DNA of 64,000 nucleotides, taken from positions 1,426,001 through 1,490,000 of the forward strand of contig NZ_JAPEMC010000001.1 of assembly GCF_026343115.1 (NCBI RefSeq), read 5' to 3'. Shown here one piece after another: positions 59,733 to 64,000 of the stretch. The translations under genes were made by a program, and so were the position numbers. The first letter of the stretch is position 1. Each line of letters opens with the position of its first letter. The notes under the pieces are model-generated. The model saw only the letters and a list, made by a program, of their open reading frames with translations. It had not been told where the DNA came from and did no database searches. The stretch is from Streptomyces sp. NBC_00102. GTDB taxonomy: Bacteria; Actinomycetota; Actinomycetes; Streptomycetales; Streptomycetaceae.

Positions 59733-61400
59733 TCAGGCAGGGGTCAGGCCTGGGTTGCCCGCCTCCGTCACGAAGGAACCGGCCGTCGTGATGGGGGCGC
59801 CGGGCGTGGTGACGGCGTCCACCGCGCGGAAGTCGGCCCGGGCGTGGTCGCGTTCGAGGGTGACGAGCGCGTAGCCGCGGCGGCCGTCGTAGAACTTCAG
59901 GTGCGGGTTGGCCGTCATCTGGTTGTTCCAGTTGGCGGGCTTCACCGAACCGTTCTGGCCGCTGGTGATCGAGCTGGTGACGATCTCCGTGCCGACGGTA
60001 CGGGACGAGGGGTCGTCGAAGTCCTTCTTCAGGTCGAAGCCGTAGGCGACGTGCACGTCCCCGGTGAGGACCAGCAGGTTGTCGACGCCCGCCGACTCGG
60101 CGCCGTCCAGCACCCGCTGCCGGGAGGCCGGGTAGCCGTCCCAGGAGTCCATCGAGAGCTTGTAGGCGGCGGTGGGCACGTCGCGCCGCTGCGCGAAGGT
60201 GACCTGCTGGGGCAGGACGTTCCAGGTGGCGCGGGAGGCCCGCCAGCCGTCGATGAGCCACCGCTCCTGAGTGGCCCCGGTCAGGGTGCGGGCGGGGTCC
60301 TCGGATTCCGGTCCGGGGACCTTCCAGCCGTCGCCGTACGCCTGGTCGCTGCGGTACTGGCGGGTGTCGAGGATGTCGAACTGCGCGAGGCGGCCGAACC
60401 GGAGCCGCCGGTAGAGGCGCATGTCGGGGCCGGTGGGGCGCTGCGGGGTGCGCAGCGGCTGGTTCTCCCAGTACGCGCGGTAGGCGGCGGCCCGGCGGAG
60501 CAGGAACTCCTCGGCGGGGACGCTGTTCTCGGGGACGTCGTCGGCGTAGTTGTTCTCGGTCTCGTGGTCGTCCCAGGTGACGACGAAGGGGTGCGCGGCG
60601 TGCGCGGCGCGCAGATCGGGGTCCGACTTGTAGAGGGCGTACCGCAGCCGGTAGTCCTCCAGGGTCAGCGTCTCCCGGTCGAAGACGTCCGGCAGCACGC
60701 GGTCGGTGTAGGCGCGGGCGCCGCCGGTGGCGGTGACGGCGTACTCGTAGAGGTAGTCGCCGAGGTGGAAGACGGCGTCCACATCCTCGTCCGCGAGGTG
60801 GCGGTAGGCGGTGAAGTACCCGTCGTGGTACGCCTGGCAGGAGACGGCGGCGAGCTTCACCGCGTGGTTGCGGGCGTGCGGGTCGGGGGCGGTGCGGGTG
60901 CGGCCGGTCTCACTGGTCCAGCCGCCGGCGCGGAAGCGGTAGTAGAAGGTGCGGCCGGATTCCAGGCCTCGGATCTCGGTGCGGACGCTGTGCGCGAACT
61001 CCGGGTGCGCGGTGGCGGTTCCGCGCCGGACCACCCGGCGGAAGCGCTCGTCGTGGGCGAGTTCCCAGCCGACCCGGACGCGGGAGGCGGGCAGCCCGCC
61101 GTCGGCCTCGTACGGGCGCGGGGCGAGGCGCGTCCAGAGCAGGAGGGAGTCGGGCAGCGGGTCGCCGGAGGCCACTCCGAGGGTGAACGGGTTCTCGGCG
61201 ATCCGGCGGGGGTCGAGTTCGGCGGCGCTCGCCGTACCGGCGGCCGGCAGGTTGACGGCGAAGGCGAGCGCGGCGGCGGCGCCGGTGGTGGTGAGGAAGC
61301 GCCGGCGGCCCACGCCCTCGCTGTGGCTGCGGGCCGCGGCGCGGAACTCGGCCGGGTGGCCGGGGCGTCCGGCGTCCGGGGTGGTCGGTGCGGGCGTCAT
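59733..61400 (-). CDS. phoD: Alkaline phosphatase D, Tat-exported
   Basis: 555 aa phosphodiesterase/phosphatase releasing phosphate outside the cell. The Tat signal is visible (GRRRFLTTTG then AAALAFAVNL, cleavage near TASAAE). PhoD N-terminal domain (NPFTLGVASGDPLPDSLLLW) and metal sites AAVSCQAYHDGY, HLGDYLYEY, TWDDHETENNY and LTGDVHVAYGF. ATG at 61400 with GGGGAGAG; a longer frame from 61517 lacks support. Expected to be under PhoP control, but no clear PHO box was identified upstream. Confidence 0.95.
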   Translation of the reverse strand: MTPAPTTPDAGRPGHPAEFRAAARSHSEGVGRRRFLTTTGAAAALAFAVNLPAAGTASAAELDPRRIAENPFTLGVASGDPLPDSLLLWTRLAPRPYEADGGLPASRVRVGWELAHDERFRRVVRRGTATAHPEFAHSVRTEIRGLESGRTFYYRFRAGGWTSETGRTRTAPDPHARNHAVKLAAVSCQAYHDGYFTAYRHLADEDVDAVFHLGDYLYEYAVTATGGARAYTDRVLPDVFDRETLTLEDYRLRYALYKSDPDLRAAHAAHPFVVTWDDHETENNYADDVPENSVPAEEFLLRRAAAYRAYWENQPLRTPQRPTGPDMRLYRRLRFGRLAQFDILDTRQYRSDQAYGDGWKVPGPESEDPARTLTGATQERWLIDGWRASRATWNVLPQQVTFAQRRDVPTAAYKLSMDSWDGYPASRQRVLDGAESAGVDNLLVLTGDVHVAYGFDLKKDFDDPSSRTVGTEIVTSSITSGQNGSVKPANWNNQMTANPHLKFYDGRRGYALVTLERDHARADFRAVDAVTTPGAPITTAGSFVTEAGNPGLTPA

Positions 61401-61660
61401 GGTCTCTCCCCTGGCAGGTGGGTGTCGGGGGGCGTCCGGCCGTGACCCGCCGGGCATCCCCTGGGCATTGGAGTGCGGGACGGCGTCCCCCGACTGTCGG
61501 GTGCACGTCATCCGCATGGCGGGGCGATGAGCACCGGGTGCGCCGGGGTCCGGCGACCCTGCGGCGCACGTCTTGGCAGGTGGCGAACGACTGTCCCGAA
61601 AGGGCTCTTGCCGCGATCATGGGCGGGAGACCGACGCCGCTTCCGGAAGGACAGCCCGAC

Positions 61661-62311
61661 GTGCCCGTACCCGCCGACCCGACCGTGCTCCATCCGATGC
61701 CCGGACAGCCCCGGGTGGTGCAGCTCCGCCCCCTGGTGACGTCCCCGTTGATCGAGGTCGGGGAGTACACCTACTACGACGACCCGGACGACGCGACGGC
61801 GTTCGAGACCCGCAACGTGCTCTACCACTACGGGCCGGAGAGGCTGGTCATCGGGAAGTTCTGCGCCCTGGGCACCGGGGTGCGGTTCCTCATGAACGGC
61901 GCCAACCACCGCATGGACGGCCCCTCCACGTTCCCCTTTCCCACCCTGGGGGGCTCCTGGTCCGACCACTTCGACCTGCTGGGGGGCCTGCCGAACCGGG
62001 GTGACACCGTCGTCGGCAACGACGTCTGGTTCAGCCACGGCGCCACGGTGCTGCCTGGCGTACGGATCGGGCACGGGGCGATCATCGGCGCCGGCTCGGT
62101 GGTCACCTCGGACGTGCCCGACTACGGCGTCGTCGGCGGGAACCCGGCCCGCCTCCTGCGCACCCGTTTCGGCGAGAAGGACATCGCCCGGCTCCTCGCG
62201 GTGGCGTGGTGGGACTGGCCCGCCGAGCACCTCACCGCGCACATCCGGACGGTCATGTCGGGCAGCGTCGCGGACCTGGAAGCCGCCGCGCCGGGTCCGT
62301 ACGACGCATGA
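61661..62311 (+). CDS. CatB/Vat-type xenobiotic acetyltransferase
   Basis: 216 aa from GTG 61661 (GGAAGG 10 nt upstream; start length fits the family, ATG 61619 is an alternative). Left-handed beta-helix acyltransferase with catalytic His in LMNGANHRMDGPSTFPF and hexapeptide repeats VVGNDVWFSHGATVLPGVRI, GHGAIIGAGSVVTSDVPDYG. Relatives acetylate chloramphenicol or streptogramin A using acetyl-CoA; chromosomal Streptomyces versions may have other natural substrates. It precedes the glycosyltransferase by 46 bp, probably one transcript of tailoring/resistance enzymes. Confidence 0.92.
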   Translation: MPVPADPTVLHPMPGQPRVVQLRPLVTSPLIEVGEYTYYDDPDDATAFETRNVLYHYGPERLVIGKFCALGTGVRFLMNGANHRMDGPSTFPFPTLGGSWSDHFDLLGGLPNRGDTVVGNDVWFSHGATVLPGVRIGHGAIIGAGSVVTSDVPDYGVVGGNPARLLRTRFGEKDIARLLAVAWWDWPAEHLTAHIRTVMSGSVADLEAAAPGPYDA

Positions 62312-62357
62312 CGATCGACGATGCCCGTCCACCACGGAAACGGAAGGTGTGATCTTG

Positions 62358-64000
62358 ATGCCCCGTCGCCGCGCCCACATCGCGATGGCCGGGATTCCCG
62401 CCGTCAGCCATGTGCTGCCCAGCCTGGAGATCATCCGCGAGCTGGTCTCCCGGGGGCACCGGGTGACGTACGCCAACGATCCGGCGGTCGCCGAGCTGAT
62501 CGCCCCCACCGGCGCGGAACCGGTGCCCTGCGTTTCCGGGCTGCCGGTGGCCGACAACACCTGGCCGGACGACCCCATCGCCGCCATGGAGCTCTTCCTC
62601 GACGACGCCGTGCGCGCCCTCCCGCAACTGCGCGCCTTCTACGACGACGATCCCGCCGACCTCTACCTCTACGACATCGGCGCCTACGCCGGGCGGGCGC
62701 TCGCCGAGTCCCAGCGGCGTCCGGTGCTGCAGCTCTCGCCGACCCTGGTGGGCTGGGACGGGTACGAGGAGGAGGTGGGGGCGCACCTGTGGCGGCTGCC
62801 GGGCGCGGATGCCTACCGGGCGAAGTTCACCCGGTGGCTCGCCGGATGCGGGGCGACCACCACCGACATGGACGCGTTCTCCGGCCGCCCGGAACGGGCC
62901 CTGGCCCTGATCCCCCGGGCCATGCAGCCGCACGCCGACCGGGTGGACACGGACCGGGTGACGTTCGTGGGCACCTGCGTTCGCCCGCAGAACGACTCAC
63001 GGGACACCGGCCCGGGCGGCGGCGGGAGCTGGACGCGCCCGGCCGGCGCGGAGCGTGTGCTGCTGGTCTCCCTCGGCTCCGCGTACACCCACCGGCCGGA
63101 GTTCTACCGCCGGTGCCTGGCGGCCTTCGGCGGGCGGCCGGACCTGCACCTGGTGCTCCAGATCGGGAAGTACACCGATCTCGCGGAGCTGGGCGGCATC
63201 CCGCCCCATGTGGAGGTGCACCGCTGGGTGCCGCAGCGGGAGATCCTGGAGCAGGCGGACGCCTTCGTCACCCACGCGGGGATGGGCGGCTGCGGTGAGG
63301 GGCTGCTCGCGGGGGTCCCCATGATCGCCGTACCGCAGGGGGCCGAGCAGTTCATGAACGCCGACCGTCTGGTGGAACTGGGCGTGGCCCGCCGCATCGA
63401 CACCGAGGACGCCACCGCCGAGGCCCTGCGGACCGCGCTGGACGGGCTCCTCACCGACCCGGAGGTGGCCCGCCGCTCGGCGGAGCTCCGGGCGGCGGCA
63501 CGGTCCGAGGGCGGCACCCTGCGGGCCGCCGATCTCGTCGAGGAGTCGCTGGGCCGAGGACGGGCGCCCCGCACACGAGGGGGGAATACGCGGGCGCTGC
63601 GCCCGGTTGAGCGCTGCATGAGCGCCGACTCCCCCGCCGAGGTCCTGCACTACACCGCCTTCTCCACCCGTCGGGAGGGCGGCAACCCCGCCGGCGTGGT
63701 CCTGGACGCGTCAGCCCTGGACGACGCCGGGATGCAGGCGATCGCCGCAGAACTCGGCTACAGCGAGTCGGCGTTCCTGACCGAGGCGACCGGGGAGCGG
63801 TCCTACACGGTCCGCTATTTCAGCCCCAAGGCCGAGGTGCCGTTCTGCGGGCACGCGACGGTCGCCACGGCGCTGGCGCTCGCGGAACGCGACGGCCCCG
63901 GTGACCTGGAGTTCCTGACGCGGGCCGGCGCGGTCCCGGTCACGGTGGAGCTGCGGGACGGCGCACTGCGGGCCACGCTGACCAGCGTGGTGCCGCACGT
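62358..64000 (+). CDS. Macrolide-type glycosyltransferase fused to PhzF domain (partial at right edge)
   Basis: One open frame runs from ATG 62358 to the window end with no stop (547 complete codons). Residues 1 to about 400 are a GT1/MGT-type UDP-sugar glycosyltransferase (OleD group): catalytic His in SHVLPSLE, LVSLGSAYTHRP, and the donor site THAGMGGCGEGLLAGVPMIA followed by PQGAEQFMNADR. A Arg/Gly-rich linker (about 400-420) leads to Met421 and a PhzF domain: YTAFSTRREGGNPAGVVL, GYSESAFL (catalytic Glu), YFSPKAEVPFCGHATVATAL. An internal restart at ATG 63618 is possible but has no good ribosome site. Such GTs inactivate macrolides by glucosylation. The combination is unusual; a lost stop codon or sequencing error must be excluded. 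Confidence 0.85.
   Translation, partial: MPRRRAHIAMAGIPAVSHVLPSLEIIRELVSRGHRVTYANDPAVAELIAPTGAEPVPCVSGLPVADNTWPDDPIAAMELFLDDAVRALPQLRAFYDDDPADLYLYDIGAYAGRALAESQRRPVLQLSPTLVGWDGYEEEVGAHLWRLPGADAYRAKFTRWLAGCGATTTDMDAFSGRPERALALIPRAMQPHADRVDTDRVTFVGTCVRPQNDSRDTGPGGGGSWTRPAGAERVLLVSLGSAYTHRPEFYRRCLAAFGGRPDLHLVLQIGKYTDLAELGGIPPHVEVHRWVPQREILEQADAFVTHAGMGGCGEGLLAGVPMIAVPQGAEQFMNADRLVELGVARRIDTEDATAEALRTALDGLLTDPEVARRSAELRAAARSEGGTLRAADLVEESLGRGRAPRTRGGNTRALRPVERCMSADSPAEVLHYTAFSTRREGGNPAGVVLDASALDDAGMQAIAAELGYSESAFLTEATGERSYTVRYFSPKAEVPFCGHATVATALALAERDGPGDLEFLTRAGAVPVTVELRDGALRATLTSVVPH

Follow-up and report, generated by a model that had tools for sequence, protein, structure and literature searches.

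The fused reading frame and its domains

The sequence examined was a 64,000-nt stretch of Streptomyces sp. NBC_00102 (NZ_JAPEMC010000001.1, positions 1,426,001-1,490,000, forward strand), referred to here as the window. Towards its end an acetyltransferase gene is followed by a single open frame for a glycosyltransferase (GT) and a PhzF-family isomerase, and a promoter motif lies within the linker between the two domains. The features of the locus, in window coordinates, are the following:

59733..61517, minus strand: PhoD-like phosphatase (presumably PhoD), by synteny the usual upstream neighbour of phzF, marking the site of the acetyltransferase-GT pair
61619..62311, plus strand: Vat/CatB-like acetyltransferase with hexapeptide repeats, leading gene of a recurrent pair (PF00132; NF000311, 235.1 bits)
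62358..63551, plus strand: MGT/OleD-type UDP-glycosyltransferase domain, residues 1-398 (TIGR01426; OleD and OleI structures)
63552..63617, plus strand: linker (codons 399-420), now translated but for the most part derived from intergenic DNA (comparison with the closest relative, G374)
63583..63608, plus strand: putative SigR-type (ECF sigma) phzF promoter, GGAAT-N18-GTT, inside the linker (consensus match; conservation before phzF)
63618..64000, continuing to the equivalent of 64472, plus strand: PhzF-family isomerase domain from its native ATG (profiles; structures)

Translation of 62358-64000 gave 547 residues, the frame staying open as far as the window edge, as a preliminary description of this DNA had claimed. 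In the host-genome sequence beyond the window (stretch L006 of the same genome, where window position equals L006 position + 58000), the frame continues until a stop codon at what would be window positions 64470-64472, and the full chain has 704 aa. The claim that a complete GT is followed by a PhzF domain in the same frame was likewise borne out by family profiles. TIGR01426 placed the GT at residues 13-398 with 339.8 bits against a cut-off of 260, which assigns it to the MGT macrolide family. The model for macrolide-inactivating glycosyltransferases, NF033129, matched residues 5-398 with 482.3 bits, below its cut-off of 700, so this name was withheld from the GT. PhzF was placed at residues 427-699 by TIGR00654 (170.8 bits, cut-off 76.2) and at residues 433-701 by PF02567 (226.2 bits, cut-off 27), both scores assigning it to the family. 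The GT is thus of the MGT/OleD type by profile, with macrolide glycosylation as a putative activity. The two domains probably fold independently; the GT-PhzF chain would have a mass of roughly 75 kDa, and PhzF alone one of about 30 kDa.

The start of the acetyltransferase is uncertain, either ATG 61619 or a GTG at about 61661, and its reading frame ends at 62311, 46 nt upstream of ATG 62358. Its scores remained below the cut-offs of both the Vat streptogramin model NF000311 (235.1 bits, cut-off 300) and the CatB model NF000490 (156.6, cut-off 350).

Relatives of the glycosyltransferase and the acetyltransferase

The GT matches MGT, OleD and OleI (TIGR01426; PDB 2iyf, 4m83, 7xx4, 2iya) over residues 5-399, and shares with OleD and OleI the aligned N-terminal His, the DIxxY segment and the THAGxGG...EGL...PQ..(D/E)QF.NAD region. 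Within the latter, the window GT has EQF where OleD has DQF; among its six nearest relatives EQF was found in four (P0124, P0125, P0126 and P0129) and DQF in two (P0127 and P0128). The MGT, OleD and OleI chains stop after the domain, whereas the window chain runs about 305 residues further.

Of 392 Streptomyces genomes, counting that of the window strain, 72 have a DNA match to the GT at E <= 1e-200. Besides the window, 106 distinct GT loci (62 named, 44 unnamed) were kept from 120, after dropping 13 duplicates and one locus without the GT. The end of the GT gene was read in 100 of them, six partial genes being left out, and all 100 complete genes end at residue 349-411. In 47 of these 106 loci the gene immediately before the GT encodes an acetyltransferase, indicating that the two genes form a recurrent unit, which is present in Streptomyces, Nocardia, Nonomuraea, Micromonospora, Promicromonospora and Actinophytocola (examples are window positions 61619-63551 and loci L067, L077, L083, L084 and L100).

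Relatives and neighbourhood of phzF

A phzF match at E <= 1e-60 was found in 210 of 295 Streptomyces genomes. YddE-type PhzF isomerases (PF02567, TIGR00654; PDB 1qya, 1sdj, 3edn) match the window PhzF over nearly their full length, and the window protein keeps the SE(S/T)AFL, CGHATVA and VEDPxTG segments of the family, but is carried behind a GT. The solved structures nearest to it are of this YddE type and are titled hypothetical or uncharacterized; no phenazine genes were recognised among the neighbours read here.

Eight phzF neighbourhoods were read at 14 kb: all eight have phoD upstream, and six have a family-2 glycosyltransferase (GT2) downstream, in some with other genes between; an MGT-type GT was absent from all eight. 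Within this sample, the acetyltransferase-GT pair was found in front of phzF in this lineage only. The preliminary description had suggested that the fused chain might be a two-step modifying enzyme for an antibiotic-like molecule. The neighbourhoods speak against it: beyond the eight phzF neighbourhoods without a GT, phzF occurs in the flanks of just one of the 106 GT loci, that of G374, where it is a separate gene (the flanks read extended up to 4 kb at named loci and 1.5 kb at unnamed ones, and a phzF lying farther away would escape).

Other GT-PhzF chains, for which the preliminary description had proposed a search, did not appear among the matches listed. Both protein searches scored 8000 candidates each; the GT relatives were 388-412 aa long (120 listed of 3363 found), and no GT label occurred in the precomputed Pfam domains of the PhzF proteins, other PhzF fusions included, in the 120 listed of 199 found. 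Nor was a GT-PhzF chain found in the open literature among the matches listed. The fused frame was not found in more than one genome, being absent from G374 and from the other 105 distinct GT loci. PhzF itself is a frequent fusion partner, joined to GNAT, cupin, SnoaL-like, EamA, MurJ and other domains (P0005-P0123), and in these proteins it is likewise one part of a longer chain; the GNAT-PhzF chain recurs in many Lentzea species, whereas GT-PhzF was seen once.

The closest relative carries separate genes

A comparison with relatives that have separate genes, also proposed in the preliminary description, could be made with G374, the closest relative found. The order acetyltransferase-GT-phzF-GT2 is the same as in the window, and the proteins are 91% (acetyltransferase), 87% (GT), 90% (phzF) and 95% (GT2) identical, with 89% identity for the GT DNA. 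In G374 the GT closes with a TGA after 398 codons, right behind the domain, and 173 nt separate this stop from phzF, which lies in another frame. In the window, by comparison, the two domains are separated by a spacer over 100 nt shorter, through which the GT frame stays open.

The G374 spacer contains a 36-nt unit repeated three times in tandem (L179:7821-7933), the consensus of which includes a GGGAAT box and lacks a GTT box. G374 is without phoD at this site; a short remnant resembling the PhoD C-terminus was found in an antisense reading frame beside the acetyltransferase (L179:5714-6586, minus strand).

Between the window strain and G374, dN/dS was 0.21 for the GT and 0.16 for PhzF. Such low values fit two working genes, and would be expected whether or not the genes are fused. 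The other GT genes read have their stop at this point too, so that the simplest account is a loss of the stop in the lineage of the window strain; this direction, as opposed to a gain of the stop in G374, rests on those other GT genes, with one relative having the same gene order.

A SigR-type promoter motif inside the linker

The DNA at 63583-63608 reads GGAAT-N18-GTT. This is the only match to the motif in the 64-kb window, against 0.61 expected by chance, and such a single match carries no weight by itself; the evidence lies in where it stands and in its conservation upstream of phzF. Conservation was examined in the nearest phzF set, comprising 33 distinct loci at least 75% identical (the window and G374 included), built from the 30 best matches and further loci after removal of duplicates, and hence best-scoring and not a random draw. 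Rows with less than 110 nt of upstream sequence, or with an alignment starting past residue 20, were dropped. The strict form, GGAAT-N18/19-GTT, was present in 28 of these loci and the loose form, GGAA[TC]-N17-19-GTT, in 32, the motif being missing in the remaining one; the start codon stands 9-10 nt after the GTT in 27 of the 32 loci with the loose form. Motif-bearing phzF loci are found, besides the window, within L038-L066, L191-L193 and L208-L227. No such motif was detected before the other kinds of gene examined (0/101 GT, 0/54 acetyltransferase, 0/5 PhoD and 0/7 GT2 loci).

Twenty more distant Streptomyces phzF loci (64-80% identical), hand-picked at intervals from further rows among the matches listed, yielded 10 strict and 15 loose motifs, while none of 10 phzF loci from outside the genus (51-62% identical) had even the loose form. 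The motif as a fixed feature of PhzF was rejected, as it is missing in 5 of the 20 distant Streptomyces loci and in all 10 from outside the genus.

An alignment of 29 rows was selected for an 18-base spacer, so that GGAA and GTT are 100% conserved there by selection. At positions outside the selection, the G before GGAA was conserved in 97% and the G of GTTG in 90%, and pairwise identity was 46% in the spacer and 37% in the 25 nt upstream. The upstream DNA of phzF in near relatives is, in other words, poorly conserved save for the boxes GGGAAT(G) and (C/G)GTTG, 18 bases apart.

The window motif agrees with the promoter consensus of SigR, the ECF sigma factor for thiol stress in Streptomyces, given as GGAAT-N18-19-GTT in PMC9205884 and, nearly identically, as GGGAAT(G/C)-16-(C/G)GTTG in PMC3489674, and differs from known SigR promoters in sitting within an open reading frame. 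A SigR orthologue is encoded in both genomes, the window strain's and that of G374 (TIGR02947, 357.4 bits, cut-off 251.55). Other ECF factors, for example SigE, read similar boxes. We infer from the match that SigR recognises the boxes before phzF. In the open papers searched, phzF was not found as a named SigR target among the matches listed, though it may already be included in a published table of SigR targets.

In the window, ATG 63618 stands 9 nt after the GTT box, and no obvious ribosome-binding site was seen before it on inspection of the sequence. With nine bases between the end of the -10 box and the ATG, a leaderless transcript is expected, starting at ATG 63618 or immediately beside it, and PhzF is probably made alone from this mRNA. 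The short basic linker of the preliminary description does join the two domains, but the DNA that encodes it is the conserved SigR-type promoter region, which that description did not recognise. Separate translation from 63618, which it had named as the finding that would count against a fused product, is made likely by this promoter.

Origin of the fused frame

The most probable explanation, to which we give a rough probability of 0.8, is that loss of the stop codon let the GT frame run through the SigR-type promoter of phzF, that PhzF is still made alone, and that the fusion is incidental. The stop-codon loss in this reading follows from the comparison with G374, which has the same gene order with a GT stop and a separate phzF, and the separate production of PhzF from the conservation of the motif and its published consensus. 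According to it, the acetyltransferase-MGT pair would have come between phoD and a resident phzF in the lineage of the window strain and G374. The GT stop would then have been lost in the window strain, where the spacer is shorter and the frame happens to enter phzF, the former spacer being the promoter region of phzF itself. SigR would fire a leaderless transcript, beginning at or beside ATG 63618, that gives PhzF alone, and the GT-PhzF chain would arise only on mRNAs starting before the acetyltransferase-GT pair. The fusion is thus most likely a recent accident without a selected joint role. Of the two readings offered by the preliminary description, fusion by loss of the GT stop is the one favoured by the separate genes of G374, and the two-step antibiotic-modifying enzyme is not.

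A selected bifunctional GT-PhzF enzyme that carries out a two-step modification of an antibiotic-like molecule could draw on the intact family motifs and the low dN/dS of both domains, on the position of the gene behind a Vat/CatB-like acetyltransferase, and on the frequency with which PhzF is joined to other domains. Two separate genes would, however, give equally low dN/dS, and in the relatives read phzF stands beside different genes; moreover, the fusion turned up in a single genome, and what lies between the domains is a promoter and not a conserved linker peptide. We regard such an enzyme as very improbable, and the single occurrence of the fusion, together with the regulatory nature of its linker DNA, led us to reject it as the main reading. 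Somewhat less improbable, but still unlikely, is the proposal that two forms of PhzF exist by design, a chain of about 75 kDa from the operon and a leaderless protein of about 30 kDa from the SigR promoter, with drug or thiol stress deciding between them, and that phzF belongs, so far unnoticed, to the SigR regulon of most Streptomyces.

A sequencing or assembly error deserves slightly more weight than either, although it too is unlikely. Under this explanation the GT frame would in truth be closed at the junction, either directly or after a shift into one of the other two frames, which have stops at 63608 and 63619, and the genes would be separate as in G374. The junction contains a G6 run at 63579-63584, and a one-base error, for example in this homopolymer, could move the frame to one of these stops and end the GT at the start of phzF; in addition, the fusion is known from one assembly and is absent from every other locus examined. 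That assembly, on the other hand, is 99.99% complete in 12 contigs, and the window junction differs from that of G374 by many changes and not by one base. An open frame is also not improbable after loss of the stop: when the 63 bases 63555-63617 were shuffled, the frame was still open in 76% of the shuffles, so that, with the GT stop lost, an open linker is a poor indicator of selection. No sign of an RNA structure or terminator was found at the junction, the folding z-score being -0.30 in the window and -0.28 in G374.

Implications

GT-PhzF is probably an accident confined to one strain, and annotating it as a two-step modifying enzyme would be a mistake. If loss of the stop codon is the correct reading, the locus is a clear case of a promoter turned into coding sequence through the loss of a stop codon, with a close relative that still has the stop.

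The link between SigR and phzF is a more useful result than the fusion. A SigR-type, apparently leaderless promoter precedes the orphan phzF in most of the Streptomyces loci examined, which suggests a role of these isomerases in the response to thiol or electrophile stress and offers a functional lead that can be tested. Translation-inhibiting antibiotics are reported to induce the SigR regulon (PMC4921905), and both genes may consequently respond to drug stress, by separate routes; this induction would tie phzF to the stress that is met by a macrolide-type GT. Should phzF indeed prove an overlooked member of the SigR regulon, the orphan isomerases would gain a role in electrophile and thiol stress.
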